Shown here: one piece after another, positions 46,106-61,334 of the stretch
How positions within the stretch are numbered: the stretch's first letter is position 1
Layout of the letters: each line of letters starts with the position of its first letter
Source: Aquipuribacter sp. SD81
Lineage (GTDB): Bacteria > Actinomycetota > Actinomycetes > Actinomycetales > JBBAYJ01
Length of the DNA: 64,000 nt
Reading direction: 5' to 3'
NCBI RefSeq assembly: GCF_037153975.1
Contig: NZ_JBBAYJ010000011.1
Coordinates: 1 to 64,000, forward strand
The notes under the pieces: model-generated
Database searches by the model: none
The model's input: only the letters and a program-made list of their open reading frames with translations
Told to the model about the DNA's origin: nothing
Translations under genes and position numbers: made by a program

Positions 46106-47584
46106 TCAAGTGCCGCAGTACGTGACGTAGTCGCCGGTGCCGTCGGGTGCGGGTGCCGCGTACCGCTCCCGGCCCGGCTGCTCCTCGAACGGTCGGCGCA
46201 CCACCTCGAGCAGGGTCCGCACCGGGGCCAGGTCCCCCGCGGTGGCCGCCTCGAGCGCCTCCTCCACGAGGTGGTTGCGCGGGACGTACACCGGGTTGAC
46301 GGCGTCGGCCCGCGCCGCCTCCGGTCCCAGCGCGCGCCAACGAGCCAGCCAGTCCCCCGTCGCCGGAGTCGCCGGCAGGAAGCCGCGGACCGGGCCGTCG
46401 TCCCCCCGCGCGGCGGCCCCGAGGGCGCGGAAGGCGCCGGTCAGGTCGCCGCGCCGCTCGTGCAGCAGGCCGAGGAAGCTCTCCCCCAGCTCCGCCGCCT
46501 GCGCCGGCTCGACGTCCGCGCCGAGCCCGAGCTTCGCTCGCACGCCCTCGGCCCACGCCGCGCGGTAGCGGTCGGCGAACACCTCGACGAGCTCCGTCAC
46601 CTCGGCGACGGCCTGGTCCACGGCGGTCGCGTCCTCCGGGTCGCGGGCGATGAGCGGCAGCAGCGTCTCCGCGAGACGGGCGAGGTCCCACTGGGCGACC
46701 GCGGGCTGGTTGCCGTAGGCGTACCGGCCGCCGGTGTCGATGGAGCTGTAGACGGTCGCCGGGTCGTAGGCGTCGAGGAAGGCGCACGGGCCGTAGTCGA
46801 TCGTCTCGCCCGACACCGTCATGTTGTCGGTGTTCATGACGCCGTGGACGAAGCCGACGAGCATCCACCGGGCGACGAGCGCGGCCTGGGCGGACACGAC
46901 GGCGTCGAGCAGCGCGAGCGCCGGCCGCTCCGCCGCGGCGGCCGCCGGGTGGTGCCGGTCGACCGCGTGGTCGACGAGACGGCGCAGCAGGTCGAGGTCG
47001 CCCGTCGCGCGGGCGTACTGGAACGAGCCGACCCGCAGGTGGCTGCTCGCGACGCGGGCGAGCACGGCCCCGGGCAGCACGCGCTCGCGGCGCACCGTCC
47101 CGCCGGTCGCGACGACAGCGAGCGAGCGGGCGGTGGGGATGCCGAGGGCGTGCACCGCGGTGCTCACCACGTGCTCGCGCAGCATGGGCCCGACCGCGGC
47201 CAGACCGTCGCCGCCACGGGCGAACGGCGTGCGGCCGGACCCCTTGAGGTGCAGGTCGCGCGGGCGGCCGGAGCGGTCGGTCAGCTCGCCGAGGAGCAGC
47301 GCCCGGCCGTCGCCGAGGCGGGGCGACCAGCCACCGAACTGGTGGCCCGAGTACGCCTGCGCGACCGGCTGGCTCCCCTCGGGCACGACCGTCCCGGTGA
47401 GCAGGCCGAGGCCCGCTCCGCTCCGCAGCCACGCGGGGTCCAGGCCCACCTCCTGCGCCAGGTCGTCGTCGAGGGCGAGCAGCCGCGGCGCCGGCGGGGT
47501 GACGGCCCGCCACGGCACGGCCAGCTCCGGCAGCTCGCGCGCGAAACGGCTGCCGAGGGGCACGTCGAGGGTCGGGGCGCTCAC
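46106..47584 (-). CDS. selO: Protein adenylyltransferase SelO (YdiU family)
   Basis: A pseudokinase-fold enzyme that transfers AMP to protein Ser, Thr or Tyr, linked to oxidative stress. The 492-residue protein shows [63 protein letters not shown] and [19 protein letters not shown], all hallmark SelO motifs. Near the end, [18 protein letters not shown] and the terminal YCGT hold the conserved C-terminal Cys (Sec in some homologues). GTG 47584 is chosen from a TATTGC box 7 bases upstream. It is divergent from the DUF4132 operon. Confidence 0.95.
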
Positions 47585-47724
47585 ACCTGCGGCAATACCC
47601 CGCGTCGCCGTCCCATTCCGTCCCGCCCCCCCACCGCCCGCCGGTCGGGTCGGAGTACACGGAACCGGTTGTGGCGGTGGGCCCGGTCGCACCACGCTGC
47701 CCACGTGCGTCGAGGGGAGCGGTC

Positions 47725-50700
47725 ATGAGCTGGCTGTCGAAGGTGCTGCCGGGTCGCGGGCCCACCGCGCACCCAGGTGCCGTGGCGCTCGCCGCGGTCC
47801 TGCGGGAGGGCCTGGGCCAGCTGTCCCGACCGGACGAGCTCGCCGCGTGGGTCGTGACGGGCCACCCTCACGACGGGCTCACGACGGCGACCTCCGACCC
47901 GGCGTGGCCGGACTCGCTCGTACCGACCCTCGTCAGCACGGGGCAGACCTGGGTGAGCCCGGTGCCGGGCGTGCAGCGGCACGCGCTCGCCGACCTGCCG
48001 CCCGACGTCCTCGACCGGCTGCTCGACCTCGTCGAGACGGCCGCGGCCGCCGTCCCGTGGGCGGCCGGGCCGGGGCGGAGGGCCGGCCTGCCCGCGTGGA
48101 CGGACGCGCTCGTGCCCGGCACGACGGTCCTCACCCGCGCGCTCCTGGTGGACGCCGGGAGCCTCGAGGACCTCGAGGTGCGGCGCGGGCTCGCCGCCGG
48201 CGCGACGCTGCGGGCGTACGCGCTCCCCGCGACCGTGCCGTCCTGGCAGCAGTCGCAGCACCGCGCGCTGCTCGGCCTCCCCGGTCTCGCCGGAGCCCTG
48301 GCGCGGCACGTCGAGGCGGTGAGGCCGGCGCTGGGTGCCGGCGACCCGCCCACGCGGCTGAGGCTGCTCGACCTCCTCGGCCTCGCCGACGACCGGACCC
48401 TCGCGACACTGGCCCCGGAGCTCGCGGCGGAGGCGACGAGCGGCAACGCCAGGGTGCGGACGGCCGCGCGGGCGCTGCTCGTGCGCGCGGCGGCGTGCGG
48501 ACCGGAGCAGGTCGCGGCACTCGACGCCCTCGCCACGGACGGGACCCCGGCGGTGCGCGCCCACGCGTTCCTCCTGCTGCACGAGCTCGGGGACGACGAG
48601 GCGCGCCGCGGCGTGCGCGAGCGGGCCCTGGCCGACCGCGCCGCAGGCGTCCGCGAGCTCGTGGAGCGCTGGGACGCCGCCGCGGCGGATGCGGTCGAGC
48701 GCGGGTCCGAGGGACCGGGGACCGGCGGGAGCGTCGACCCGGCGGCCCTCGGCTGGTCCCCGCCCGTCCGCCAGGATCGTGGGGCGGAGTGGGCGGTGCC
48801 CCTCACCGCGGACGTCGAGCGCTGGGTCGACGACGTCCTCAGCAGGCTCGCCCAGCTCGACCAGCAGTACTCCGGCCGACGGACGCCGACCGTCGCCCCC
48901 GGGGACGCGCGTCGGCGGCGCGCACAGCTGCGGGCACACCTCGCGAGCACCGACGTGCGCAGCGGTGGTGCGCCCGCCACCGGTACCGACCCGTCGTGGC
49001 CGGTCGTCCACGCGGTCTCCCGCGCCACGCCGTCCGGGGTCCCGCTGGTCGCGGTCCTCAAGGCGCTCGACGTGCTCGGCGCGCTGCCGGCCGACGCCCG
49101 CGCCGCGGTGGCCGGCTCGTGGTCCGGCCCGGCGCGCGCCGTCGGGACCGCGGTGCAGCGCCTGCACGGCGCGGAGGGGCCGACGCTGCTGGAGGTCGCG
49201 GACGCGCTGGCCGTCATGGGGGTCGGCGCCGAGGTCGCCGGCCGCGCCTACGCCCTGAGGTGGCAGGGTCTCGGCGACGGCTGGCCCGAGGAGCACCTGC
49301 GCGGCTTCTTCGCCTGCTACGGCTCGACCGCCCTCGACCTGCTGGACGAGGACCGCGTGAGCTACGAGGTCGACCGGGCGCGCCTGCTCCGCGGGCTCGG
49401 CCTCGTCGAGCACCACCCGCGCGCCGTCCTCGAGCGGCTCGTCGCCCTCGCCGTCGGCACGCGCACGAGCGACCACGAGGCGGCGCAGGACGCGCTCGGG
49501 CGCGGTGCGACCGCTCGGGACCAGGCGGTCGCGGCGCTGCGTGAGCGCCGTGCCGGCGCCCGCCAGGCGGCCGCCCGCTGGTGCGCCCGCCTCGGTGACC
49601 CGAGCGCCGTCGACGCCCTGGAGGCGGCGTTCCGGACCGAGCGGGACGACCAGGTGCGCAGCGCACTGCTCGACGCGCTCGAACGGCTCGGCCGTCCCGC
49701 CCACCTCTACCTCGACCCGGCCTCGCTCGCCGCCGACGCGGACAAGGGGCTCCGCAAGGGGGTGCCGGCGTCGCTGGCGTGGGTGTGGTGGGACGGCCTG
49801 CCGCCGCTGCGCTGGGCCGCGGACGGCACCGAGCTGCCGCTGCCGGTCGTGCAGTGGCTCTGCCTGCAGGCGGTCAAGGCCCGCTCGCCCGAGCCCGGCG
49901 CGGTGCTGCGCCGCTACGGCGCGCTGCTCGAGGAGCGCTCCCGCGGCGCCTTCGCCGTCTCCCTGCTCCAGCAGTGGGTCGCGGAGGACACCCGCCCCGT
50001 CGACCCCGCCGACGCCGAGCAGGCCGCGCGGGCCGAGGCGGCCGGGCTGCACCGCGGCCTGCAGCAGTACCCCGGCTACTACCCGAACCACCCGATGCAC
50101 GGGCGCAGCCTCGAGGAGGTCACCGCGTGGCTGCTCCCCGGGCACCTGCGCCGCCCGCGCGGGTCGGCGACCTCGAGCAAGGGCGTGCTCGCGGTCGTCG
50201 GGGCCACGGGCGACGAGCGGGTCGTGCCGGTCGTGCGCGCCTACCTCGCGGAGTGGTACGGCACCCGCGCCGCGCAGTGCAAGGCGCTGCTCGGCGTCCT
50301 CGCGTGGGTGCCCGCCCCGGCCGCCACCCAGCAGCTGCTGCAGGTGGCCGACCGCTTCCGCACCAAGGGGGTGCAGCAGGAGGCGGTGAGGCTCGCGCAG
50401 CAGGTCGCCGACGTCCGCGGCTGGACGACCGAGGAGCTCGCCGACCGCACCGTCCCGACGGCCGGCTTCGACGCGCGCGGCGAGCAGGTCCTGTCCTACG
50501 GCGAGCGCGCCTTCACCGCCGTCCTCGACGCCGACCTGACCGTGCGGCTCCGCACGGACGACGGCCGGACCGTCAAGGCCCTCCCGGCGCCCCGCAGCAG
50601 CGACGACGCCGAGGCCGCGGCCGCCAGCAAGCAGGCGCTCGCGGCCGCCCGCAAGGAGGTCAAGGGCGTCCTGCAGGCGCAGCGATCACGGCTGCAGCAG

Positions 50701-51438
50701 GCGCTGGTCAGCCAGCGCACGTGGGACGCCGACCTGTGGGCCGAGCACGTCGTCGCCCACCCCCTCGTCGGCCGGCTCGCCCAGGGCCTCGTGTGGGTGC
50801 TCGAACCACCGGGACCGGGGACGGCGGGGGACGGTGCACCGGCAGGGGCGGGGCCGCTCGTCGTCCGCCCCCTGCCGGACGGCAGCCTGACCGACGTCGA
50901 CGACGAGGACGTCGAGGTGCCCGCCGGGTGGCGGGTGCGCCTCGCCCACGACGCCGTCGAGGGCCCGGAGGTCGCGGCACGCTGGCTCGAGCACCTCGCG
51001 GACTACGAGGTGACGCCGCCCTTCCCGCAGCTGGGCCGGCCCGTGCACCGCCCCGAGGACTCCGACACCGACGCCGTCACCGACGTCCGCGGCACGCTCG
51101 TCGCCTCGTCGTTCCGGCTCCGCGGTCGGGCCACCGCAGCGGGCTGGGCGCGCGGTGAGGTGGGCGACGGCGCGACGTGGACGGAGTACGTGCGCACCCT
51201 GCCGGGCTGGCGCGCCGAGCTGGAGCACTCCGGCCTGGTCGTGCCCGAGGAGGACCACCCCGTCGCGCTGCTCGCGCTCCGCTTCCGCGCCGTGGCGCCC
51301 GACGGGACGGTGGCGCCCACCGCCACCCCGCTCGGGAGCGTGCCCGCCGTCGTCTACTCCGAGTGCCTCACCGACGTGCGCGGCTTCGCGTCGCTCGGCG
51401 CCCACGACCCCGAGTGGCAGAAGGCGGCGGCGTGGTGA
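47725..51438 (+). CDS. DUF4132 / HEAT-like repeat protein (YehI-like)
   Basis: A 1237-residue cytosolic protein. Much of it consists of Ala/Leu-rich HEAT-like helical pairs, for example RARLLRGLGLVEHHPRAVLE and RQAAARWCARLGDPSAVDAL. The C-terminal about 300 residues carry the DUF4132 domain with GYYPNHPMHGRSLEEV nearby and DVRGTLVASSFRLRGRA. It is the first gene of five coupled genes; the family member in E. coli is YehI. Its size and repeats suggest a scaffold or substrate-binding part. ATG 47725 follows GAGGGGAG. GTGGTGA at its end overlaps the next start. Confidence 0.88.
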   Translation: MSWLSKVLPGRGPTAHPGAVALAAVLREGLGQLSRPDELAAWVVTGHPHDGLTTATSDPAWPDSLVPTLVSTGQTWVSPVPGVQRHALADLPPDVLDRLLDLVETAAAAVPWAAGPGRRAGLPAWTDALVPGTTVLTRALLVDAGSLEDLEVRRGLAAGATLRAYALPATVPSWQQSQHRALLGLPGLAGALARHVEAVRPALGAGDPPTRLRLLDLLGLADDRTLATLAPELAAEATSGNARVRTAARALLVRAAACGPEQVAALDALATDGTPAVRAHAFLLLHELGDDEARRGVRERALADRAAGVRELVERWDAAAADAVERGSEGPGTGGSVDPAALGWSPPVRQDRGAEWAVPLTADVERWVDDVLSRLAQLDQQYSGRRTPTVAPGDARRRRAQLRAHLASTDVRSGGAPATGTDPSWPVVHAVSRATPSGVPLVAVLKALDVLGALPADARAAVAGSWSGPARAVGTAVQRLHGAEGPTLLEVADALAVMGVGAEVAGRAYALRWQGLGDGWPEEHLRGFFACYGSTALDLLDEDRVSYEVDRARLLRGLGLVEHHPRAVLERLVALAVGTRTSDHEAAQDALGRGATARDQAVAALRERRAGARQAAARWCARLGDPSAVDALEAAFRTERDDQVRSALLDALERLGRPAHLYLDPASLAADADKGLRKGVPASLAWVWWDGLPPLRWAADGTELPLPVVQWLCLQAVKARSPEPGAVLRRYGALLEERSRGAFAVSLLQQWVAEDTRPVDPADAEQAARAEAAGLHRGLQQYPGYYPNHPMHGRSLEEVTAWLLPGHLRRPRGSATSSKGVLAVVGATGDERVVPVVRAYLAEWYGTRAAQCKALLGVLAWVPAPAATQQLLQVADRFRTKGVQQEAVRLAQQVADVRGWTTEELADRTVPTAGFDARGEQVLSYGERAFTAVLDADLTVRLRTDDGRTVKALPAPRSSDDAEAAAASKQALAAARKEVKGVLQAQRSRLQQALVSQRTWDADLWAEHVVAHPLVGRLAQGLVWVLEPPGPGTAGDGAPAGAGPLVVRPLPDGSLTDVDDEDVEVPAGWRVRLAHDAVEGPEVAARWLEHLADYEVTPPFPQLGRPVHRPEDSDTDAVTDVRGTLVASSFRLRGRATAAGWARGEVGDGATWTEYVRTLPGWRAELEHSGLVVPEEDHPVALLALRFRAVAPDGTVAPTATPLGSVPAVVYSECLTDVRGFASLGAHDPEWQKAAAW

Positions 51439-52568
51439 CGGGCGGGGTGACAGGCGGAGCGGGGGACGGGAGCGACCCTGCGCTCGGCGTGCTCCGCGCG
51501 CCGGCGGAGGTCGTGCACGCCGAGGAGCTCGCGCGCCTCGCCGCGGCCGACACGGGTCCGCGTCCGCCCGGCTGGCGGCTGTCACCGCGCGCGGTGCGCG
51601 CGTTCGTCGTCGGCGACGAGCGGCTCGGGGTGCGCCGGAAGTTCTGGGGCGACGACCCTCTCGTCGACCGCTGCGTCGTCACGCTCATGAGCCAGCGCGG
51701 GCTGCTGCTCGTGGGCGAGCCCGGCACCGCCAAGTCCATGCTGTCGGAGCTGCTCGCTGCGGCGGTGTCCGGTCGCTCGGGTGTCGTCGTGCAGGGCAGC
51801 GCCGGCACGAGCGAGGAGAAGATCACCTACTCGTGGAACTACGCGCTCCTGCTCGCCGAGGGGCCGAGCGAGCGCTCGCTCGTGCCCGGCCCGGTGTACG
51901 AGGCGATGCGCGACGGGGTGCTGTGCCGCTTCGAGGAGATCACCCGGGTGCAGCCGGAGGTGCAGGACACCCTCATCGGACTGCTGAGCGACAAGGCCCT
52001 GCACGTGCCCGAGCTGGCCGGCGGTGACGCGGTCCTCTACGCCCGGCCCGGCTTCAACGTGCTCGCGACCGCGAACCTGCGCGACCGCGGCGTCCACGAG
52101 ATGTCGAGCGCGCTCAAGCGACGCCTCGGCTTCGAGACGGTCCGGCCCGTACGGGACCGCGCCCTGGCCCGGCGCCTCGTCACCGAGCAGACCGACGCGC
52201 TGCTCGCCCGCGCCGAGGTGGACGTCCGGCTGCGGCCCGAGGTCGTCGACCTGCTCGTCACCGCCTTCCACGACCTGCGCGAGGGCATGACGGAGGACGG
52301 CACCGTCGTCGAGCGGCCGACCGCGGTCCTGTCCAGCGCCGAGGCGGTCGCCGTCGGGTACGCCGCGTGCCTGGACGCGTACTACCTCGGCGACGGCGAG
52401 GTCGACGGCGGGCACGTCGCCCGCCAGCTCGTGGGGACCGTCCTGAAGGACAACCCGGACGACGGCACCCGGCTGCGCCACTACCTCGACACGGTGGTGG
52501 CGGCCAGGGCGCGCCGGCAGCCGGTGTGGCGCCCCGCCCTCGACGCGCGTCGTGACCTCGACCGCTGA
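51435..52568 (+). CDS. MoxR-type AAA+ ATPase (YehL-like)
   Basis: A 377-residue ATPase of the MoxR group, usually partnered with vWA proteins in chaperone-like remodelling. Walker A is GEPGTAKS with Lys100, in LLLVGEPGTAKSMLSELL. The Walker B acidic pair is Glu167-Glu168 (CRFEEITRVQPEVQDTL) instead of Asp-Glu. Sensor 1 is NVLATANLRDRG and the arginine finger region is SSALKRRLGFE. GTG 51435 overlaps the DUF4132 stop (GTGA); GTG 51432 is possible. It overlaps the DUF5682 gene by 17 bases. Confidence 0.94.
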   Translation: MTGGVTGGAGDGSDPALGVLRAPAEVVHAEELARLAAADTGPRPPGWRLSPRAVRAFVVGDERLGVRRKFWGDDPLVDRCVVTLMSQRGLLLVGEPGTAKSMLSELLAAAVSGRSGVVVQGSAGTSEEKITYSWNYALLLAEGPSERSLVPGPVYEAMRDGVLCRFEEITRVQPEVQDTLIGLLSDKALHVPELAGGDAVLYARPGFNVLATANLRDRGVHEMSSALKRRLGFETVRPVRDRALARRLVTEQTDALLARAEVDVRLRPEVVDLLVTAFHDLREGMTEDGTVVERPTAVLSSAEAVAVGYAACLDAYYLGDGEVDGGHVARQLVGTVLKDNPDDGTRLRHYLDTVVAARARRQPVWRPALDARRDLDR

Positions 52569-55038
52569 GGTCCGCCGCACGGCGGCGGACATGCTCGGTG
52601 AGGACCTCGTCGTCGTCCCGGTGCGGCACCACAGCCCGGGGTGCGCCCTGCAGGTGGGCCGCGCGGTGGAGCGGCTGCGACCGAGGGCGGTCCTCGTCGA
52701 GGGGCCGCGGTCCTTCACGGGCCTCGTCCCGCTGCTCACCGACCCCGCCACGGTGCCTCCCGTGGCGGTGTACGCGTGGGCGGCCGCCCCCGACGGCGTG
52801 ACCCGGCACGGCGCCTACCACCCGTTCTGCGAGCACAGCCCCGAGCTCGTCGCCGTGCGGGCGGGTGCGGCGCTGGGCAGCGACGTCCGCTTCGTCGACC
52901 TCGACCCGACCGAGCAGTGGCTCCTCGACCGAGCGGGCCGCGGTGAGGCACCCGCGCCCGTCGACGAGCGCGCGGGGCGGCACGGCACCGGCCCGCGCGC
53001 GTCGGAGGGGCGGACCGGACCGCTGCAGGACGAGCGGCACCTGCGTCACAGCCGCTCGCTGTCGGCGCTGGCCGCCCGGCTCGGCTGCCGCGACCACGAG
53101 GAGCTGTGGGAGCACCTCTTCGAGGTCGACGCCCCGCACCTCGACCTCCGCCAGCACGTCGAGCGGGTCGTCGCCTACTGCCTGCTCGCGCGCACCGACA
53201 GCGACGGCGCCGCGCTGGAGCGCGATGGCACGCTCGCGCGGGAGGCGGAGATGGCGTGGCACGTCGCGCAGGCGCTCGACCGACCCGGCGACGGCCCCGT
53301 CCTCGCGGTGGTCGGCGGCTTCCACGGCGTCGTGCTGCCCGGGCTCGTGGCCGCCGTCCGCGGCGGCGCGCTCGCGCGACCGGCCGTGACCGTGCCCGCG
53401 GACGTCGTGGGCGGGCACGCCCTCGTCCGCTACTCCAGCGACCGCCTCGACCGCCTCCAGGGGTACGCCGCCGGCATGACGTCGCCGGCCTGGCACCGCC
53501 GCGTGTGGCGTGCGGTGCAGGAGGGGGCCGACGCGGGCGCCGCGCGGCGCGCGGTCGCCCTCGACGTCCTCCAGGACGTCGCCGACCTCGCGCAGCGGCA
53601 GTCCCGTCGCACCGTGCCGCTGCCGCTCGTGCAGGCGGGCTACGAGCAGGCGCTCGGCCTCGCGGCGCTGCGGGGGCGCGCCGGACCGGTCCGCGAGGAC
53701 GTCGTCGACGCGTGCGGCAGCGCCTTCGTCTCTGGCGACGTCGACACCGACGGCGCCGGCGTGCTCGCCGCCCTGCGCTCGGTGCTCGTCGGCGACGACC
53801 TGGGCCGGGTGCCACCCGGGGCGGGCAGGCCGCCGCTGCTCGCCGACACCGAGGCGCGGGCCCGCGCGCTGCGCCTGCACGTCGACGACGTCGAGCGCCG
53901 GCGCGCGGACCTCGACGTGTACCGCCGCCCCGACCACCGCCGGACGAGCCGCTTCCTGCACGCGCTGGGCTTCCTCGGCGTCCCGTTCGCCGTCCGCCAG
54001 GCGGGCCCCGACTTCGTGCACGACGTCGACCTGCACCGCGTGCGCGAGCGGTGGGAGTACGCGTGGGGCGCGGCGACGGAGGCCGCGCTGGTCGAGCGGT
54101 CCGCATACGGCTCGACGCTCGCCGACGCCGTCCGGGCCCGCTTCGAGGAGCACGTCACGGAGACCGTCGCCGAACAGGCACCCGACGCGCTGCGCGGGGC
54201 CCGGACGCTCGTGCACGCGTGCGTGCTCGGCCTGCACGACGCGGTGCCCGACGTGCGCGCGCACGTGACCGCCGCGCTCGCGGCCGACCCGTCGTTCGCG
54301 TCGGTGGCCCGGGCCACCGCCACCCTCGCGGTGCTGCTGCGGGCCCGGGAGCCGCTGGAGGCCGACCGCGTGCCCGACCTGCAAGCGCTCGTGCGGGCCG
54401 CCGGCTCGCGCGCCCTCTACCTCGCGCGCGGTCTGGCCGCCGAGGAGCCCGCGGACACCGCGGCCGAGGAGGAGACCGCCGACGGGCTGGTGCGGCTGCG
54501 GGGCCTGCTGCTGGAGCCCGAGGCGGCGACGGCCCTCGACGAGGACGTGCTGTGGCAGGTCGTGGCCGCGGCGGCGGACGCCGTGGCGCAGCCGCTGCTG
54601 GCCGGTGCCGCGACAGGTCTCCTGCACGCCGCGGGGCGCCTGGCCCCGGGGGCCCTGGGGGCGCGGCTGGCCGGGCGCCTCGCCGGGGCCGGCGACCCCG
54701 CCGCCGCGGCGTCGTACCTGGTGGGCGTCCTCCGCACCGCGCGTGAGGCGGCCTGGCAGGACGACGACGTGGTCCGGGCCGTCGACGACCGGCTCGCCGA
54801 GTGGGACGACGTCACGTTCGTCGCGGCGCTGCCCCGGCTGCGGCTCGCCTTCACCGGGCTTACGCCGCGCGAGACCGACCGCGTCGCCGAGGCGGTCGCG
54901 GCCCGGCACGGTCGCGCCCGCCTGGACGTGTCGGTCGTCCGCGAGGTCACCGCCGAGGAGGCGGCCGGCGCGGCCGCGCTGAGCGCCGACGTCGTCGCCG
55001 CCCTCGACGCGCACGGCCTCGCGGGGTGGACGCGGTGA
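52552..55038 (+). CDS. DUF5682 family protein (YehM-like)
   Basis: An 828-residue protein of unknown function, third in the operon. The N-terminal region has VVVPVRHHSPGCALQVGRAV (Arg25, His26, His27), RPRAVLVEGPRSF (Glu50) and VVGGFHGVVLPGL (His258). By pattern these resemble the TraB/ChaN/EreA-like fold, where such His and Glu residues form an active site; this is inference. The rest is mostly helical, with an Asp/Glu-rich middle. GTG 52552 is the upstream start; it overlaps the ATPase gene by 17 bases. The next gene overlaps by GTGA. Confidence 0.85.
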   Translation: MTSTAEVRRTAADMLGEDLVVVPVRHHSPGCALQVGRAVERLRPRAVLVEGPRSFTGLVPLLTDPATVPPVAVYAWAAAPDGVTRHGAYHPFCEHSPELVAVRAGAALGSDVRFVDLDPTEQWLLDRAGRGEAPAPVDERAGRHGTGPRASEGRTGPLQDERHLRHSRSLSALAARLGCRDHEELWEHLFEVDAPHLDLRQHVERVVAYCLLARTDSDGAALERDGTLAREAEMAWHVAQALDRPGDGPVLAVVGGFHGVVLPGLVAAVRGGALARPAVTVPADVVGGHALVRYSSDRLDRLQGYAAGMTSPAWHRRVWRAVQEGADAGAARRAVALDVLQDVADLAQRQSRRTVPLPLVQAGYEQALGLAALRGRAGPVREDVVDACGSAFVSGDVDTDGAGVLAALRSVLVGDDLGRVPPGAGRPPLLADTEARARALRLHVDDVERRRADLDVYRRPDHRRTSRFLHALGFLGVPFAVRQAGPDFVHDVDLHRVRERWEYAWGAATEAALVERSAYGSTLADAVRARFEEHVTETVAEQAPDALRGARTLVHACVLGLHDAVPDVRAHVTAALAADPSFASVARATATLAVLLRAREPLEADRVPDLQALVRAAGSRALYLARGLAAEEPADTAAEEETADGLVRLRGLLLEPEAATALDEDVLWQVVAAAADAVAQPLLAGAATGLLHAAGRLAPGALGARLAGRLAGAGDPAAAASYLVGVLRTAREAAWQDDDVVRAVDDRLAEWDDVTFVAALPRLRLAFTGLTPRETDRVAEAVAARHGRARLDVSVVREVTAEEAAGAAALSADVVAALDAHGLAGWTR

Positions 55039-56234
55039 GCGACGCCGGACCCGCCCGGGTCGGTGCCCGGGGGCCGGCGGAGGCCGACGCCGAGGTCGAG
55101 CGGACGCTGCAGCGCTGGCGGCTCGTCCTCGGCCCGTACGCGGACCAGCGGCTGCCGCGCCTCGCGGCCGCGTCGACGGCGGAGCGCCTCGACGCGGCCC
55201 TGCACGCGCTGTACGGCCGCGAGCTGCACGGCCGCGGTGCACGCGGTGAGGGCGGCGCCGAGGAGGACGGGCCGCGCACCGGGTCGCTCGGCGGCTCCGC
55301 CCCCACGGTGGTGGCGTGGCTGGACGAGGTGCGCCAGCTCTTCCCGCAGCGCACCGCCGAGGTCGTCGAGGCCGACGCCCTGCAGCGCTACGGGCTCACC
55401 GAGCTCGTCACCGACCCGACCACCCTGGAGCGCCTCGAGCCGAGCCAGGAGCTGCTCGAGACGCTGCTCGCGCTGCGCGGGCACCTGTCGCCGGACGTCC
55501 TGCACCTCGTGCGCCGGGTCGTCGAGCACGTGGTGGAGGAGGTCCGACAGCGGCTGCAGAGCGAGGTGCGGCGCGCCCTCACGGGTCGCGCGAGCCGGAC
55601 GAGCCACACGGTGCTGCCGAGCGCCGCGACCTTCGACGTGCACGGCACGATCCGCGCGAACCTGCACCGCTGGGACGCGGAGAACCGGCGCCTGCCCGTC
55701 GAGCGGCCGCTGTTCTTCGCCCGGAACGCCCGGCGCCTGCCGTGGGACGTCGTGCTGTGCGTCGACCAGTCCGGTTCCATGGCCTCCTCGGTCATCCACA
55801 GCGCCGTCATGGCGGGCATCCTCGCCGGGCTGCCGTCGCTGCGGGTGCGCCTCGTCGTCTTCGACACCGCCGTCGTCGACCTGTCCGACCGGGTGGAGGA
55901 CCCGGTCGAGGTCCTCCTGTCGGTGCAGCTGGGCGGCGGCACCGACATCGCCGCCGCGGTCACGTACTGCGAGGGGCTGGTGGAGAACCCGACCCGGACG
56001 GTGCTGGTCCTCGTGACGGACTTCTGCGAGGGCGGCCCCGTCGGCCGGCTCGAGGCCGCCGTCGCCCGGCTCGCGGAGGCGCGGGTCACGATGATCGGCC
56101 TGGCGGCCCTGGACGGTCGGGCGGAGCCCGCGCACGACCGCACCGTCGCGGGTCGCCTCGCCGCCCGTGGCATGCGCATCGCGGCGCTGACGCCGGACGC
56201 CCTCGCCCGCTGGCTCGCGGAGGTCGTGTCGTGA
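55035..56234 (+). CDS. vWA domain protein of the MoxR system (YehP-like)
   Basis: A 399-residue cytosolic vWA protein, no signal peptide. The N-terminal half is helical (VERTLQRWRLVLGPYADQRL; TVVAWLDEVRQLFPQRTAEV). The C-terminal vWA domain has a full metal-ion site: VLCVDQSGSM (Asp244, Ser246, Ser248), GGGTDIAAAV (Thr303) and VLVTDFCEGG (Asp329). It likely binds the MoxR ATPase and presents a substrate through its metal ion. GTG 55035 and the next gene's start both lie in GTGA overlaps, indicating fixed stoichiometry. Confidence 0.92.
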   Translation: MSDAGPARVGARGPAEADAEVERTLQRWRLVLGPYADQRLPRLAAASTAERLDAALHALYGRELHGRGARGEGGAEEDGPRTGSLGGSAPTVVAWLDEVRQLFPQRTAEVVEADALQRYGLTELVTDPTTLERLEPSQELLETLLALRGHLSPDVLHLVRRVVEHVVEEVRQRLQSEVRRALTGRASRTSHTVLPSAATFDVHGTIRANLHRWDAENRRLPVERPLFFARNARRLPWDVVLCVDQSGSMASSVIHSAVMAGILAGLPSLRVRLVVFDTAVVDLSDRVEDPVEVLLSVQLGGGTDIAAAVTYCEGLVENPTRTVLVLVTDFCEGGPVGRLEAAVARLAEARVTMIGLAALDGRAEPAHDRTVAGRLAARGMRIAALTPDALARWLAEVVS

Positions 56235-58375
56235 GCGGGACCAGGGCCGCGGCCACCCTGGCCCGGCTCGACGACGAGGCGCTGGAGGTCCTCGCCAGCG
56301 CCGGTCTGCTGCGCCGTGCCCGCAAGGACCTGGCTCGCTCGCAGCCGCAGGTGCTGGAGGACGGCTCCGTGCTGCGGGCGGAGGTCGACGGGCACGAGGT
56401 CGTCGTGGGTGTCGCCGGGCCCGCCGCGGCCACGTGCTCGTGCCCCGCCGCGGGCACGTGCCAGCACGTGCTCGTCCTCGCGCTGCACGCCCGCACGGTG
56501 ACCGCCGGCGAGTCGTCGGCGCGGCCCGGCGCCCCCTCGTCGGGCGGGACCGGCCGCGCCCCTACCGCCGCTCCCGACCCGCTCGGTCACCTGGCGGCGG
56601 TGCCGGTCGAGGACCTCCTCGCCCACGCAGGGCGCCCCGGCTACCGGTGGGCCCACGACGCCGTCGTCGACCTCGACCTCGCCGCGGACGTCCGGGTCCG
56701 TTCCGACCCCGACGGGTCGGTGACCGTGTCGCTGCTGCGGCCCCGGGCGACGCTGCGGTGGCTCGGCGGGCCCTGGCAGGAGGCCGTCGTCTCCCCCGCC
56801 GGGGGGCAGGCGGCCCGGTCGCGCGTCGCGGCGCTGCTCGCGGTACGGCGGGCCACCGGCGCCGACGTGCCGCCGCCGCCCGCCCCGGTCGCGCACCGCG
56901 GCGGCCCCGAGGACGACGCGGCCGGCCGGGGCGAGGTGGAGGCGCGCGAGCGGGCCCGGAGCGCAGCCGGCGACCTCCTGCTCGACTGCGTGGCGCTCGG
57001 TCTCGCCCACGTGGACGACGACGTCCGCGAACGGGCCGAGACCCTCGCCGTCTGGACGCAGACGGCCGGGTACCACCGGTTGTCCCGGGTGCTGCGGGCC
57101 GTCGCGGACCAGGTGGGCTCCCAGCTGCGGCGGCACGCCGCCGCGGACAGCGCTCGGCTGCTCGACACCCTCGCGACCGGTCACGCCCTCGTCGCGGCGC
57201 TGGTGGTCGCCGAGCAGGCGGCGCGTGACGGCGGGCCGGACGTGCCCGTCACGCTCACCGGCCGCGCCCGGGGGCGTTTCGTCGAGGTCGACCGGCTCGA
57301 CGTCCTCGGCGTCGGCGGCGTCCCGTGGCGCTCCGCCACCGGCTTCGTCGGCCTCACCACCTACTGGTGGTCGCCGGCCCGACGGCAGGTGCTCTCGTGC
57401 ACCGACGCCCGCCCGGAGACGTTGCGCGGCTTCGACCCGCGCGAGCGCTGGACCCAGCCCGGACCGTGGACCGGTCTCGTCTCCCCCGCCGCGGGCGCCG
57501 GCCGGCTGCTGCGCCTCACCGGGGCGCGCCTGTCCGACGACGGCCGGCTGTCCGCGGTCGAGTCGACCGTCGCGGCCGCCCTGCCGGCCCCGGCCGACCT
57601 GGCCGCCCTCGCCCTCGAGCCCTGCGAGCGGTGGGCCGACCTCCGCGCTGGGTCACCCCGCGCGACCCTGCTCGCGGACCCCGCCGCCGAGCAGCAGGTC
57701 GTGCTGGTGCGGCCCGCCGACGCCGGCGCGCCGGCGTTCGACCCGGCCCGCCAGGTGCTCGTGTGGCCGCTGGCCGACGCCGACGGCGACGTGCTCGGCG
57801 CCGAGGTGGCGTGGGGACCGTACGGGGCGGCGGCGGTCCGTCACCTCGAGGCGGTCGGTGCCTCCCTGGCGACCGGGACCCTCGTGTGGGCCCGGGTGCG
57901 CAGCCGCGCCGGGACCGCGGTCCTCGAGCCGGTCTCCACGTGGCCCGGGCCGGGCGGCGACGTCGAGTCCGTGCACCTGCCCACCTCCGGCTCGCCGAGC
58001 CGACCGTCGGGACGGTCTGGCCCGTCGGGTGACGCTCCGGGCCCGACGCCACGCGCTCGCGGGGCCGACGGGGCCGACGGGGCCGAGCCCGACGGGGCCG
58101 AGCCCGACGCCCCGGCCGTGCCCGCGGCCCTCGCCGCGCTGCGCGGGTGGAGCGTCGCGACGGCCGAGCGCGGCACCTCCCCCGCCGCGACCGCGCGGGC
58201 GTGGCAGGAGGTGGCACGGCTGCGCCGCCGCGCCGCGGACGCCGGCTGGACGGCGCTGCCCGACCCGACGCGCACCCCGGTGGGCGACGCGAGGGCAGCC
58301 GCCGCGGCCGTCCTGCGGACGCACGCGGTGCTGCTGCAGCACGAGCGGCTGCTCGGGCGCGCCGCGGGACTCTGA
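56231..58375 (+). CDS. SWIM zinc-finger protein (YehQ-like)
   Basis: A 714-residue protein and the last gene of the five. A SWIM zinc finger lies near the N-terminus, CSCPAAGTCQH with Cys69, Cys71, Cys77 and His79 (CxCxnCxH). The middle holds mixed helix and strand regions with GFVGLTTYWWSPARRQVLSC. A low-complexity Gly/Ala/Asp/Pro linker (RGADGADGAEPDGAEPDA) precedes the final helical part. SWIM domains bind DNA or protein. GTG 56231 overlaps the vWA stop. A convergent gene begins 15 bases downstream, so the operon ends here. Confidence 0.92.
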   Translation: MSGTRAAATLARLDDEALEVLASAGLLRRARKDLARSQPQVLEDGSVLRAEVDGHEVVVGVAGPAAATCSCPAAGTCQHVLVLALHARTVTAGESSARPGAPSSGGTGRAPTAAPDPLGHLAAVPVEDLLAHAGRPGYRWAHDAVVDLDLAADVRVRSDPDGSVTVSLLRPRATLRWLGGPWQEAVVSPAGGQAARSRVAALLAVRRATGADVPPPPAPVAHRGGPEDDAAGRGEVEARERARSAAGDLLLDCVALGLAHVDDDVRERAETLAVWTQTAGYHRLSRVLRAVADQVGSQLRRHAAADSARLLDTLATGHALVAALVVAEQAARDGGPDVPVTLTGRARGRFVEVDRLDVLGVGGVPWRSATGFVGLTTYWWSPARRQVLSCTDARPETLRGFDPRERWTQPGPWTGLVSPAAGAGRLLRLTGARLSDDGRLSAVESTVAAALPAPADLAALALEPCERWADLRAGSPRATLLADPAAEQQVVLVRPADAGAPAFDPARQVLVWPLADADGDVLGAEVAWGPYGAAAVRHLEAVGASLATGTLVWARVRSRAGTAVLEPVSTWPGPGGDVESVHLPTSGSPSRPSGRSGPSGDAPGPTPRARGADGADGAEPDGAEPDAPAVPAALAALRGWSVATAERGTSPAATARAWQEVARLRRRAADAGWTALPDPTRTPVGDARAAAAAVLRTHAVLLQHERLLGRAAGL

Positions 58376-58389
58376 CGCCGTCGACCCGC

Positions 58390-59154
58390 TCAGGACAGGT
58401 CGAGCGGGACGCGCTCCCCCGTGACCAGCCGCACCACGCCGACGTCGTGACGGTCCGTCCCGCCGCTCGCGTCGCTCCCGTCGCGGCCCGGGCGTCGCGT
58501 CACCCACCACACCGCCCCGCGTCCCACGACCGTCGCCGTGCCGTCGACCACGGTGACGGCGGTGTCCTCGTCCACGGCCAGCACCCGGTCGAGGTGCCCC
58601 GCGGTGACCGCCGCGACCGCCCGGCCGAGCGTCCCCCAGGCCCCCGCGTGCACGTCGATCCCGAACGGGACGAGCCCGAGGCCGTCGACGACCGACACGT
58701 GGTCGAGGTCCTCCGACGCGTCCTCCGGGCAGACCGGCACCCCGCCCTCCCGCCAGCCGCCGACGAGGGCGCGGTCGGCGGCGACGGCGGCACCGGCGGA
58801 GAAGCCCGCGTACGGCCGGTCGTGGTCCGCGAGCCAGTCGCGGACGCCCGCAGCGGCGGGCGCCAGCGCGGCGGCGTAGGCGGGCGTGAGGCCACCGCAC
58901 ACCAGCAGCGCGTCGGCGTCGGCGAGCGCGGCGACGTCGAGCCGGCCGCCCTCGGGCACGAGCACGGGCACCGGCTCGCAGGCGCCGGTGGCGCGCAGGA
59001 CCGTCTCCCAGCGGGCGAACTGCGCGGGGCCGTCCCCTTCGTCGAGCACGACGCACGCGACGGTCGGCCGCCGGCCCCCCGCCTCGAGGAACGGGCCCCA
59101 GACCGCGTCGCGTGCGTCGTCGCGCCACCCGCCGCCGATCAGCTGCACGAGCAC
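58390..59154 (-). CDS. Peptidase S51-like / cyanophycinase-fold protein
   Basis: A 254-residue protein of the S51 fold. It starts VLVQLIGGGW, has DALLVCGGLTPAY (the GGN/Q-like element) and the nucleophile elbow YAGFSAGAAVAA with Ser119. LGLVPFGIDVHAG follows, in place of the usual DQHF/HF region. It is the second S51-type protein in this window. GTG 59154 is chosen because it gives the family-like opening and follows GGAGAGGGG. It converges on the SWIM gene. Substrate unknown; no cyanophycin synthetase is nearby. Confidence 0.82.
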   Translation of the reverse strand: MLVQLIGGGWRDDARDAVWGPFLEAGGRRPTVACVVLDEGDGPAQFARWETVLRATGACEPVPVLVPEGGRLDVAALADADALLVCGGLTPAYAAALAPAAAGVRDWLADHDRPYAGFSAGAAVAADRALVGGWREGGVPVCPEDASEDLDHVSVVDGLGLVPFGIDVHAGAWGTLGRAVAAVTAGHLDRVLAVDEDTAVTVVDGTATVVGRGAVWWVTRRPGRDGSDASGGTDRHDVGVVRLVTGERVPLDLS

Positions 59155-59200
59155 GCGGCACGCCCCTCTCCGGCCCGCGCGACCGGCGGGCGCCCGCCGC

Positions 59201-59206
59201 ACGCTA
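59201..59206 (-). promoter_or_regulatory. -10 box TAGCGT for the second S51 gene
   Basis: TAGCGT on the minus strand, 46 bases before GTG 59154, giving a short leader with a ribosome site. Confidence 0.5.
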
Positions 59207-59233
59207 CAGCGGGCGGGTGTCCGAGGTGCCGCC

Positions 59234-59239
59234 TACCGT
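59234..59239 (+). promoter_or_regulatory. -10 box TACCGT for the DUF3072 gene
   Basis: TACCGT, 7 bases, then ATG 59247: leaderless-type promoter. Confidence 0.65.
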
Positions 59240-59246
59240 CTGCTGC

Positions 59247-59471
59247 ATGACCGACGCACCCACCGACAACGGCAACGACGGAACCCCGAGCGGGGCCGAG
59301 AAGCCCGTCGAGGACTGGGCGACCGGCGACGAGCCGGCCACCGGGCCCCAGCTGTCCTACCTGCACACGCTGGCCCGCGAGGCCGGCCGCGACGTGCCCG
59401 ACGACATCACCAAGGGACAGGCGTCGCAGATGATCGACGAGCTGCAGCAGCAGACCGGCCGAGGGGCGTAG
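59247..59471 (+). CDS. DUF3072 domain protein
   Basis: A 74-residue soluble protein. The N-terminal 30 residues are acidic and disordered; the DUF3072 part is WATGDEPATGPQLSYLHTLA and ITKGQASQMIDELQQQTGRG. Function unknown; the motif resembles short SAP-like or helical-hairpin folds found in many actinobacteria. The start is fixed by the -10 box. It is followed after 8 bases by the DUF2630 gene. Confidence 0.9.
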   Translation: MTDAPTDNGNDGTPSGAEKPVEDWATGDEPATGPQLSYLHTLAREAGRDVPDDITKGQASQMIDELQQQTGRGA

Positions 59472-59479
59472 GAGGCACC

Positions 59480-59725
59480 GTGCGGGACGAGGAGATCCTC
59501 GCCGAGATCCACCGCATCGTCGACGACGAGCACCGCACCCGCGAGGCCGCGCAGCGCGACGAGCTCACCCCGGAGCAGGAGCGGCAGGAGGTGCAGCGCC
59601 TCGAGGTCGCCCTCGACCGGTGCTGGGACCTGCTGCGACAGCGCCGCGCCCTGCGCTCGGCCGGTGAGGACCCCGACCGGGCCGAGACGCGCTCGGAGCA
59701 GGTCGTGGAGCACTACCGGCAGTGA
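59480..59725 (+). CDS. DUF2630 family protein
   Basis: An 81-residue helical protein, RDEEILAEIHRIVDDEHRTR, then LTPEQERQEVQRLEVALDRC and WDLLRQRRALRSAGEDP. This is the complete DUF2630 family, predicted to be two long helices forming a hairpin or coiled coil. GTG 59480 follows GGAGG. Its stop overlaps the rhodanese start by 4 bases, so three genes (DUF3072, DUF2630, rhodanese) form one unit. Confidence 0.93.
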   Translation: MRDEEILAEIHRIVDDEHRTREAAQRDELTPEQERQEVQRLEVALDRCWDLLRQRRALRSAGEDPDRAETRSEQVVEHYRQ

Positions 59726-60591
59726 CCCCCAGCGCGCACGGCGGCGGAGCCGGTGACCCGTCGGGGTCCCGGCTCCCGCCCGTCGTCGGGCCCGGCGACC
59801 TGGCCGGCGTCGAGCCGCCGCCCGTCCTCGTCGACGTGCGCTGGTACCTGGACGGGCGCTCCGGCGCCGACGCCCACGCAGCGGGCCACCTGCCGGGAGC
59901 CGTGTTCCTCGACCTCGACCGCTGGCTCGCCGCGCCCGCCGGCGGCGGCGGCCGGCACCCGCTGCCGGACCCCGGGACCTTCACCGAGGGCCTCGCCGCG
60001 GCCGGGATCGGCGACGACGACCACGTCGTCGCCTACGACGACGCCGGCGGGGCGGTGGCCGCCCGGCTCGTCTGGCTGCTGCGGGTCACCGGCCGCTCGG
60101 CGGCGCTGCTGGACGGCGGGCTGCGTTCGTGGACCGGACCGCTGCAGTCGGGGTCCGTCGAACGGGCCCGCACGGCACCGCAGGTGAGGCCGTGGCCGCC
60201 GGCGGCCGTCGCCGACGCCGCGGCCGCCGCCGGCAGCGGCACCGTGCTGCTCGACGCCCGGGCATCCGAGCGGTACCGCGGTGACGTCGAGCCCGTGGAC
60301 CCGCGCGCCGGTCACGTCCCCGGCGCCCGGAACCTGCCCGCGACGGACCTGCTCGACGACGACGGTCGGCTGCTGCCGGTCGAGCGACTCGCCGCCGCGT
60401 TCACGGGTGTCGGCGCCGGCGCCGACGCCGACGTCGTCGCCTCGTGCGGGTCCGGGGTCACCGCGTGCCTGCTCCTCGTGGCCCGTGAGCACGCCGGGCT
60501 GCCGCCGGGCAGGCTGTGGCCGGGCTCGTTCTCCGAGTGGTCCCGCGACCCGGCCAACCAGGTCGTCACCGGTCCCTCGCCCAGCGCCTGA
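59722..60591 (+). CDS. Two-domain rhodanese-type sulfurtransferase
   Basis: A 289-residue thiosulfate or 3-mercaptopyruvate sulfurtransferase with two rhodanese modules. Module one (about residues 20-135) has LVDVRWYLDGRSG, AGHLPGAVFLDLDRWLA and YDDAGGAVAARLVWLL, without a catalytic Cys. Module two (about 165-285) has DARASERYRGDVEPVDPRAGHVPGA and the catalytic loop VASCGSGVTACLL with Cys242. GTG 59722 overlaps the DUF2630 stop. The CGSGVTA loop is typical of the SseA group. Confidence 0.93.
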   Translation: MTPSAHGGGAGDPSGSRLPPVVGPGDLAGVEPPPVLVDVRWYLDGRSGADAHAAGHLPGAVFLDLDRWLAAPAGGGGRHPLPDPGTFTEGLAAAGIGDDDHVVAYDDAGGAVAARLVWLLRVTGRSAALLDGGLRSWTGPLQSGSVERARTAPQVRPWPPAAVADAAAAAGSGTVLLDARASERYRGDVEPVDPRAGHVPGARNLPATDLLDDDGRLLPVERLAAAFTGVGAGADADVVASCGSGVTACLLLVAREHAGLPPGRLWPGSFSEWSRDPANQVVTGPSPSA

Positions 60592-60656
60592 CACCGTTGG
60601 GAGGCCCCGTCCGTGGCTCGGCCCGGCGCCGTTCCGCGCTGCGGCCGACCGTGCCG

Positions 60657-61196
60657 TCAGGTGCCCGGCGAGTCCGGGCCCGTGGTGACGTCGGCGACCC
60701 GGGCGTCGACCGCCTCGAGCAGCTCGTCGGCGTCGACGACGACCGCGACCCCGTGGGCGCCCGCACCGATCGAGACCTCACCGGCCCCGGTGAGCGAGGC
60801 GTCCGCGACGACCGGCCACGCCCGCAGCGACCCCAGCGGCGTGATGGTGCCGCGCTCGTAGCCGGTCGCGTCCCGCGCGGCGGCGGCGTCCGGCATCGAC
60901 AGCCGGTTGACGCCGAGCAGGCCGCGCAGGTCCGGCCACGAGATCTCCCGGTCGCCGGGCACCAGCACGAGCAGGAAGTCGTCGTCGCCCCGCCGGACGA
61001 CCAGCGTCTTGACCACCGCCGCAGGCGTCACGCCGCGCGCCTCGGCGGCCTCGGCGAGGGAGCGGACCGGGCCGTGGCGGACGACGCGGTAGCGCAGCCC
61101 GAGCGCGGCCGCCGCCGCCAGGGCCCTCCGCTCGCCGTCACCCGGTCCGTCCGGCTGGTCCGCGGGCTCCGTCGTACCCGTCACCCGGTCCGTCAC
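60657..61196 (-). CDS. YbaK/EbsC-family aminoacyl-tRNA deacylase
   Basis: A 179-residue protein of the YbaK/ProX editing fold that hydrolyses mischarged aminoacyl-tRNA. Motifs: RHGPVRSLAEAAEARGVTPA, AVVKTLVVRRGDDDFLLVLV with the conserved Lys, LGVNRLSMPDAAAARDATGY and GTITPLGSL. About 35 N-terminal residues are a charged extension. GTG 61196 is chosen from a TACGCT box 8 bases upstream; GTG 61184 is possible. It converges with the rhodanese gene. Confidence 0.9.
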   Translation of the reverse strand: MTDRVTGTTEPADQPDGPGDGERRALAAAAALGLRYRVVRHGPVRSLAEAAEARGVTPAAVVKTLVVRRGDDDFLLVLVPGDREISWPDLRGLLGVNRLSMPDAAAARDATGYERGTITPLGSLRAWPVVADASLTGAGEVSIGAGAHGVAVVVDADELLEAVDARVADVTTGPDSPGT

Positions 61197-61204
61197 GGGG
61201 CCCG

Positions 61205-61210
61205 AGCGTA
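61205..61210 (-). promoter_or_regulatory. -10 box TACGCT for the YbaK gene
   Basis: TACGCT on the minus strand, 8 bases before GTG 61196; a near-leaderless promoter. Confidence 0.5.
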
Positions 61211-61272
61211 GGGAACCCCGCCGGTCCCGCGCACGCGGACCGGGGTCGAGCCTCGGCCGCAGCGACGTCCGT

Positions 61273-61308
61273 GTTCCCGTCCGCGTCCCTGTCCGCGTCT
61301 CTGTCCGT
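61273..61308. repeat. 12-bp tandem repeat, three copies
   Basis: GTTCCCGTCCGC, GTCCCTGTCCGC and GTCTCTGTCCGT follow one another without gaps between two divergent promoters. Small and possibly incidental. Confidence 0.6.
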
Positions 61309-61322
61309 GAGGCCGCCGGGGA

Positions 61323-61328
61323 TAGGTT
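61323..61328 (+). promoter_or_regulatory. -10 box TAGGTT for the MOSC gene
   Basis: TAGGTT, 6 bases, then GTG 61335: leaderless-type promoter. Confidence 0.65.
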
Positions 61329-61334
61329 CGCACT

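Follow-up and report, generated by a model that had tools for sequence, protein, structure and literature searches.

The first 64,000 nucleotides of contig NZ_JBBAYJ010000011.1 from Aquipuribacter sp. SD81 (hereafter the window, which means this whole stretch) carry five plus-strand genes between positions 47725 and 58375 that correspond to the yeh genes of Escherichia coli. A preliminary description made from the letters alone had claimed five overlapping genes on one strand. This was borne out by the reading frames, which overlap with their neighbours by 4, 17, 4 and 4 bases. On translation, each frame contains a single stop, located at its end, and the proteins comprise 1237, 377, 828, 399 and 714 residues. 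Gene 1 starts with ATG and genes 2-5 with GTG, and the GC content at third codon positions is 0.95-0.97 in the five genes, with 76.7% GC in the window. The genes were annotated as follows:

47725..51438, plus strand: gene 1, DUF4132 protein, 1237 aa, with a helical/HEAT part, the DUF4132 domain and a small C-terminal domain
51435..52568, plus strand: gene 2, MoxR AAA+ ATPase of the YehL type, 377 aa (Pfam, blastp)
52552..55038, plus strand: gene 3, DUF5682 protein, 828 aa (Pfam, blastp)
55035..56234, plus strand: gene 4, CoxE-type vWA protein, 399 aa (Pfam, blastp)
56231..58375, plus strand: gene 5, SWIM-finger protein, 714 aa (motif, blastp)

Profile searches with Pfam placed four of the proteins in the families named beforehand, all over the cut-off: DUF4132 (E 7.9e-36), AAA_5 (4.1e-34), DUF5682 (2.8e-96) and VWA_CoxE (1.1e-46). 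For gene 5, the SWIM profile (PF04434) stayed below its cut-off of 19.6 (15.3 bits, E 0.015), and this family is assigned by its motif:

56435..56467, plus strand: SWIM finger CSCPAAGTCQH, residues 69-79 (motif alignment)

Of 74 Yeh-type rows (76 rows aligned), 72 retain the CxC-CxH finger, and the window is among them. A scan of the five proteins with NCBIfam resulted in zero matches above any cut-off.

The claimed likeness to the yeh genes is backed by blastp against E. coli K-12 MG1655, where all five counterparts were found: YehL for the MoxR protein (48% identity over 355 residues, E 1.8e-112), YehP for the vWA protein (46% over 380, 1.2e-107), YehM for the DUF5682 protein (28% over 805, 2.7e-50), YehI for the DUF4132 protein (24% over 394, 6.9e-27) and YehQ for the SWIM protein (33% over 92 N-terminal residues including the finger, 8.6e-6). 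Judged by one-way blastp, each window protein is the predicted ortholog of its E. coli counterpart. The order yehI, yehL, yehM, yehP, yehQ, given in the preliminary description, agrees with K-12, where the arrangement of the five families matches that of the window on a single strand, although yehK sits between yehI and yehL and the gap ahead of yehL is longer. Furthermore, YehQ carries two SWIM motifs and the window protein one, and in E. coli a WGR-DUF4132 gene lies upstream of the cluster. This upstream gene (L001, 4475-8270) is split in K-12 into yehF and the pseudogene yehH, while it forms one frame in strain F17EC0245. The window operon is a further copy of a known operon, the families of which are already in the annotation. 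In the literature searched, which covered few subscription journals, we found no functional study of the Yeh operon or the YehL subfamily, no paper with the word DUF5682 and none in which any two of YehL, SWIM zinc finger, TraB family, DUF5682 and DUF5691 occur together.

The motifs of the ATPase and of its vWA neighbour are complete, the latter including the metal ion-dependent adhesion site (MIDAS):

51714..51737, plus strand: Walker A GEPGTAKS, K100 in 102 of 102 rows
51927..51941, plus strand: Walker B-like RFEEI, E167 and E168 present in all 102 rows
55764..55778, plus strand: MIDAS DxSxS (D244, S246, S248), completed by T303 (55941-55943) and D329 (56019-56021)

All 102 aligned MoxR rows also hold N214 (sensor 1 Asn) and R229 and R230 (Arg finger). 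The five MIDAS positions are kept in 93, 93, 93, 92 and 93 of the 93 aligned vWA rows, which confirms the full metal site noted earlier. In the motif alignments, E. coli YehM, YehL and YehP are each doubled, one copy in the YehM alignment being listed under 'other'. The YehL subfamily, to whose namesake the window MoxR is 48% identical, is named among MoxR proteins in the available part of PMC3893208. In published work, MoxR-vWA pairs capture and remodel targets; in NorQ/NorD, according to the available part of PMC13036017, a finger of the vWA protein sits in the AAA+ pore, and strokes driven by ATP twist the adaptor and its client. With NorQ/NorD and other MoxR-vWA chaperones the window system shares a predicted AAA+ ring and the MIDAS-bearing vWA partner. 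It differs by three further conserved proteins, and the neighbour families listed include no metalloenzyme that recurs. The ATP-driven remodelling machine proposed in the preliminary description would follow, by analogy, from this published work and the intact motifs.

To assess the recurrence of the neighbourhood, genome contigs were searched with an alignment of four YehL-type proteins, which gave at least 589 pattern matches, with 567 confirmed relatives among the matches listed. The best 80 of these 567 MoxR relatives were analysed as loci, a selection biased to near kin of the window MoxR. Gene order was counted in the 69 of the 80 loci with at least 5.0 kb before and at least 5.6 kb after the MoxR match, the other 11 being too short. 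Profiles built for this analysis detected all five families in 68 of these 69 well-covered relatives, and the expected five-gene neighbourhood is therefore a recurring one; the remaining locus (L071) has MoxR-DUF5682 only. The window order DUF4132, MoxR, DUF5682, vWA, SWIM is found in 58 of the 69, four of them with a further piece. Five loci have DUF4132 last, one has it last and on the other strand, and four begin with vWA-SWIM. With the order rearranged in 10 of 69 loci, the fixed-ratio complex that had been deduced from the overlaps is a weak claim. Many loci contain tandem extra DUF4132 genes. Judged by record titles, operon loci occur in eight or nine bacterial phyla, as well as on the K-12 chromosome. 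The four nearest operons for each of the five window proteins are all among loci L053-L060, so the five seem to travel together.

The DUF5682 protein was aligned in 98 rows (97 distinct proteins of several flavours), in which His26, His27, Pro29, Glu50, Asp116, Trp186, Glu191, Arg214, Arg230, Glu231, Met234, Gly255 and His258 do not vary. From this pattern of invariant residues a TraB-like N-terminal domain was guessed, and the guess was then tested with structure models and profiles. The putative domain and its residues are:

52552..53370, plus strand: TraB/TIKI/ChaN-like N-terminal domain, residues 1-273 (model alignment, profiles)
52630..52632, plus strand: invariant His27, pairs with the His of TraB GTxH (alignment, profile)
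52699..52701, plus strand: invariant Glu50, pairs with a conserved TraB Glu (alignment, profile)
53239..53244, plus strand: invariant Arg230-Glu231 (alignment, profile)
53314..53325, plus strand: Gly255-x-x-His258, corresponding to the second GxxH motif (alignment, profile)

The AlphaFold2 model of the protein has a mean predicted local distance difference test score (pLDDT) of 92.5. VIA-align was run on the top 1000 entries from Foldseek, and its first rows are three Tetrahymena complex IV entries (Z 10.9-11.2; at Z 11.2 the root-mean-square deviation, rmsd, is 4.7 over 200 residues), aligned within residues 1-273. Their chains represent two distinct sequences, both titled 'TraB family protein'. 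ChaN (2g5g) comes next (Z 8.6, rmsd 4.7, 166 residues), again within residues 1-273, and helical-repeat proteins reach at most 8.0. The entry 2G5G is counted in the TIKI superfamily in the available part of PMC6254334.

The same relation is suggested by profile comparisons with hhalign. Against 32 TraB/GumN proteins, taken from genomes of the loci studied, the DUF5682 N-terminal domain scored 32.0 (E 0.001), while 20 column shuffles stayed at or below 18.5 and the reversed profile scored 12.8. This alignment pairs Arg230...Met234 and GxxH258 with their TraB counterparts. Against a single TraB protein the domain scored 30.7 (E 0.0019; a comparison without shuffle control). The first motif alone, aligned with that TraB protein, scored 22.4 (E 0.00046), with 50 shuffles at or below 14.4, and here His27 lies opposite the GTAH histidine and Glu50 opposite the conserved Glu. 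With the TraB/TIKI/ChaN/EreA-like superfamily the N-terminal domain shares a probable resemblance in fold and the His, Glu, Arg and second GxxH residues; it differs by VRHH in place of GTxH, by a long helical C-terminal part and by its operon context. In our judgement the domain is likely a fold relative of TraB/TIKI/ChaN and, with less confidence, probably active as an enzyme.

Several results weigh against this relation, or against the machine built on it below. Foldseek with the whole DUF5682 model found nothing in the PDB at E <= 0.001, TraB chains appearing at 0.54 and 0.58, and no chain among the PDB sequences was matched by the DUF5682 profile. Z values of 8 to 11 are moderate for a model of 828 residues, and the match to the 32-protein profile has a probability of only 21.5. 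The first motif reads VRHH (V24-R25-H26-H27), without a Gly, and is neither GTxH nor GxxH; compared with GumN N-termini it scored 9.0, with shuffles reaching up to 15.1. The available part of PMC6254334 records a member of the TIKI superfamily without catalytic residues and without activity. Finally, the distances of the five proteins correlate across 63 operons (rho 0.67-0.83), a value that is uncorrected for shared descent.

Related loci show which parts of the operon vary. Among 18 stretches without a Yeh-type DUF4132 gene, a SWIM protein lies nearby in 10 and a DUF5691-like match in 5. Plasmids of Deinococcus taeanensis and Rhizobium sp. K102 carry SWIM-DUF5691-MoxR-DUF5682-vWA, with DUF5691 confirmed in D. 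taeanensis (3.3e-14). These loci share adjacent MoxR, DUF5682, vWA and SWIM genes with the window and differ in that DUF5691 replaces DUF4132 and that the SWIM gene either leads or lies on the opposite strand. The order MoxR-DUF5682-DUF4132-vWA-SWIM occurs on a Sinorhizobium plasmid that was typed as conjugative. In two loci, DUF5682 and VWA_CoxE are joined in one open frame (L037, 1645 aa; L044, 1243 aa). Because of the two flavours, the fusions and the rearranged loci, MoxR, DUF5682 and vWA seem to form the core, beside a large partner, DUF4132 or DUF5691, that looks exchangeable as far as gene content tells. The TraB reading of DUF5682, the DUF5682-vWA fusions and the DUF5691 flavour beside the DUF4132 one go beyond the preliminary description and deserve a specialist's attention. 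A relationship of DUF5691 to DUF4132 was also considered and found no support, hhalign giving a probability of 2.4 (E 0.02) on HEAT-like helices only. The genomes with L037, L044 and L051 are large ones of one class and have two or three DUF5682 places each, some of them with DUF5682-vWA in frame.

From the families, their motifs, the recurring neighbourhood, the fold resemblance of DUF5682 and the DUF5682-vWA fusions we infer that the five genes may encode one Yeh-type machine, in which a MoxR-vWA motor controls a TraB-fold hydrolase (probability roughly 0.42). In the complex predicted here, the MoxR AAA+ ring (gene 2) would couple to the vWA adaptor (gene 4), whose metal site would grip a target peptide as proposed for NorQ/NorD. 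The strokes of the motor would then act on the target or hand it to the DUF5682 protein (gene 3), where the TraB/TIKI/ChaN-like domain would probably hydrolyse a bond in it, either peptide or ester. The HEAT/DUF4132 (gene 1) and SWIM (gene 5) proteins would serve as scaffold and recognition parts and choose the target, and where WGR is present, as in E. coli, DUF4132 and SWIM may direct the machine to damaged DNA or its proteins. That the motor gates or feeds the TraB-fold domain is proposed by analogy with NorQ/NorD and with the MoxR-vWA defence systems whose vWA component is fused to peptidases, which are described in the available part of PMC12839542. The probabilities given to roles and to mechanisms in this text overlap and need not sum to one.

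The strongest form of this proposal, a new ATP-driven hydrolase with capture by the metal site, a TraB/TIKI-fold active site, an exchangeable DUF4132 or DUF5691 and a SWIM protein choosing the target, is speculative and on balance improbable. If true, Lon, Clp and FtsH would gain a further energy-dependent counterpart, a protease or esterase whose catalytic fold is unrelated to theirs. The catalytic hypothesis for DUF5682, with its named residues and the natural vWA fusion, makes the role of the operon testable in E. coli K-12.

The same motor could work without any hydrolysis. MoxR-vWA would then mature a client or insert its cofactor, as do NorQ/NorD, CoxD/CoxE and RavA/ViaA, with DUF5682 as an idle binding fold and DUF4132 and SWIM as client or scaffold. 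Assembly is the role of most studied MoxR-vWA pairs in the available parts of the sources, the vWA protein is of the CoxE type, and ChaN, a relative in fold, is a haem-binding protein by the title of 2g5g. Against such a pure assembly chaperone stand the residues of DUF5682 that resemble an active site, which are unvarying in 98 rows, and the lack of a recurring metalloenzyme in the gene neighbours, as judged from the 25 commonest of their 161 Pfam families. These neighbours are 119 of 302 proteins, selected by an open-frame heuristic, from 32 of the 80 loci (L053-L085). We regard the assembly chaperone as a rather doubtful alternative to the motor-controlled hydrolase.

For the role of the machine, the DUF4132 protein and the regions upstream of the operons were analysed. 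Gene 1 and the region ahead of it contain the following features:

49507..49683, plus strand: HEAT_2-like repeats, residues 595-653 (Pfam E 4.6e-06, just under the cut-off)
50563..51147, plus strand: DUF4132 Pfam domain, residues 947-1141 (Pfam)
51067..51402, plus strand: C-terminal domain resembling YugN in fold, residues ~1115-1226 (AlphaFold2 and VIA-align)
47585..47724, no strand assigned: region between selO and gene 1, presumed divergent promoter, LexA-like box not found

Of the 33 aligned DUF4132 proteins, 29 contain HEAT_2 at E <= 0.01. In the AlphaFold2 model of residues 560-1237 (mean pLDDT 89), helical repeats are followed by a mixed domain, and Foldseek found no PDB match for it at E <= 0.001. 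VIA-align superposed some 110 residues close to the C-terminus on YugN (2r5x; Z 9.2, rmsd 2.7, 100 residues), a resemblance in the predicted model that points to no function. WGR is absent from the window protein, which was scanned whole, and from all 33 aligned proteins, most of whose rows begin at the profile match, so that a WGR further upstream would escape. The E. coli copy F17EC0245 has WGR and DUF4132 in one protein.

Upstream boxes were searched with approximate consensus patterns, the PafBC pattern being a rough one. Across 66 loci including the window, with 18 loci of other phyla outside the scan, LexA-, alpha-LexA-, actinobacterial SOS- and PafBC-like patterns upstream of the operon gave no group-wide signal; the stretches were set from profile matches, several of them fell in coding sequence and that of K-12 lay before yehL. 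A LexA-like match with one mismatch occurs in 6 of 25 gamma- and betaproteobacterial loci, and shuffles of the same stretches reach it in 3-20%. Eleven gammaproteobacterial loci were rescanned from open-frame starts (profile start used for L081 and L098), and K-12 was read directly. A LexA-like box with one mismatch, CTGGATAAAATTACAG, starts 25 bases upstream of yehF in K-12, and in two Proteus loci and one of Pectobacterium a near-identical box pair, CTGTTTATCYATACAT, lies 30-32 bases ahead of the operon's first gene. A good box is absent in Providencia, Gilliamella, two Pseudomonas and a third Proteus, and 3 of the 11 loci are positive. In contrast to E. coli, no LexA-like box was found upstream of the window operon; its best SOS-like match is off at 2 of 12 positions, is reached by 0 of 30 shuffles and lies inside gene 1.

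These boxes are consistent with a DNA-damage response role, compatible with either mechanism, in which the SOS-induced machine would handle proteins on damaged DNA through WGR-DUF4132 and SWIM. The available part of PMC8533742 reports that DRA0166, a DUF4132 protein of Deinococcus, rises with mitomycin C in the wild type and not in an irrE mutant, and cites MolR as part of the LexA regulon; the WGR of the E. coli copy fits the same role. However, the box matches are partly within the reach of shuffles and confined to a few loci, and the window operon has neither an upstream box nor WGR. In addition, the K-12 derivative DGF-298 is viable without the cluster, as stated in the available part of its source, and the cluster is therefore dispensable in that strain. 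A DNA-damage role is possible, although we do not expect it.

The preliminary description had suggested stress or conflict. The second of these would place the operon among anti-phage or conflict systems, as a relative of the MoxR-vWA ternary systems with VMAP, iSTAND or beta-propeller partners (PMC7159879, PMC12839542). These share with the window a MoxR-vWA core with extra partners, and some have vWA-peptidase fusions. They differ in their VMAP, iSTAND and propeller partners, which a Pfam scan at E 0.1 did not detect in the five proteins, with a library that may not contain all of them. A weak bpMoxR match of the window MoxR (2.1e-05, under the cut-off) would fit such a relation. The words YehL, SWIM and DUF5682 are absent from the main text of PMC7159879.

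The patchy occurrence of the genes would suit a conflict system. In a sample of 296 genomes from the phylum, 21 contained DUF5682 of any type. In 119 genomes drawn from the order, DUF5682 is present in 16 (15 over the cut-off) and DUF4132 in 9; 6 genomes contain both, and in 4 of these (G000, G313, G394, G399) the two lie no more than about 2 kb apart. The genus is represented in the latter sample by two further genomes, one without either family and one with DUF5682 but not DUF4132.

Mixing across phyla points the same way. A tree of MoxR, DUF5682 and vWA was calculated with a quick method and Shimodaira-Hasegawa-like approximate likelihood ratio test (SH-aLRT) supports from 63 operons, window included, for which all five long matches were required. 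It covers Actinomycetota, Pseudomonadota, Verrucomicrobiota, Cyanobacteriota, Melainabacteria, Planctomycetota and Spirochaetota. The Hyalangium and Lachnospiraceae loci (L127, L132), which we take to belong to Myxococcota and Bacillota and which have DUF4132 downstream, were left out. The window is one of nine members of a starred group, the others being three Actinomycetota and five Pseudomonadota; a second Actinomycetota group, with 11 members, stands apart from it. A single clade of the 15 Actinomycetota rows and the window was rejected on this quick tree (approximately unbiased test, p-AU 1.8e-31). Transfer or old duplication could explain the mixing alike.

Relatives were found in 25 plasmid records, several of them chromosome-sized. 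An Iodobacter fluviatilis plasmid (L144, 1070-20334) carries a full Yeh operon and a second, shorter DUF4132 gene, surrounded by type I restriction genes and transposases of IS3, IS200/IS605 and IS630; the annotation gives its SWIM gene at a shorter length and places an overlapping hypothetical gene after it. Restriction genes and insertion sequences beside a plasmid copy would also fit a conflict system.

Against a conflict role, PADLOC at E 0.1 matched the five proteins only once, with RT_UG23 (0.0057) in the HEAT stretch of gene 1, and Pfam finds no effector family in them. At 1e-10, seven PADLOC families with 4, 3, 2, 1, 1, 1 and 1 members were found in the 119 neighbours, counted without a control set. 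No defence-island enrichment is obvious there, the 25 most frequent Pfam families being ordinary transport, metabolism and regulation. There is no relative in 50,697 phage records, and none of 13 pattern matches in IMG/VR viral contigs was confirmed as one. A mobile or viral origin was also considered on these searches and the plasmid records, and was not adopted. Moreover, the cluster has the same flanking genes, metG, yehR and yehS, in both E. coli records compared, of which one is filed under a 393-kb plasmid. A conflict role is unlikely.

Thus the preliminary description stands in part. Its Yeh-like, ATP-driven remodelling machine is supported, by analogy in the case of the remodelling. 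Stress or conflict is supported only in part, by the boxes of some enterobacteria and the published mitomycin C induction of the Deinococcus protein; a LexA-like site ahead of the window genes, a convincing PADLOC match, a visible defence neighbourhood and a phage or viral copy were looked for and not found.

The old name MolR suggests molybdate regulation, for which this name and the annotation are the evidence. As moeA and moeB are unchanged on DdrO depletion in the available part of PMC8533742 and the Pfam scan found no molybdate-binding family in the five proteins, this is highly improbable.

Both genes flanking the operon belong to families outside the five. Upstream, a SelO protein adenylyltransferase gene lies on the minus strand (46106-47584, PF02696 E 6.7e-96, start chosen at 47584). 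Since it is transcribed away from the operon, the intervening 140 bases are probably a divergent promoter. Downstream, a minus-strand gene (58390-59202) with a weak Peptidase_S51 match (E 0.00015, under the cut-off) ends 14 bases past the operon. Farther on (59112-62069), genes for DUF3072, a rhodanese and then a MOSC domain bring sulfur/molybdenum-type functions near a 'MolR'-type operon, probably by chance.

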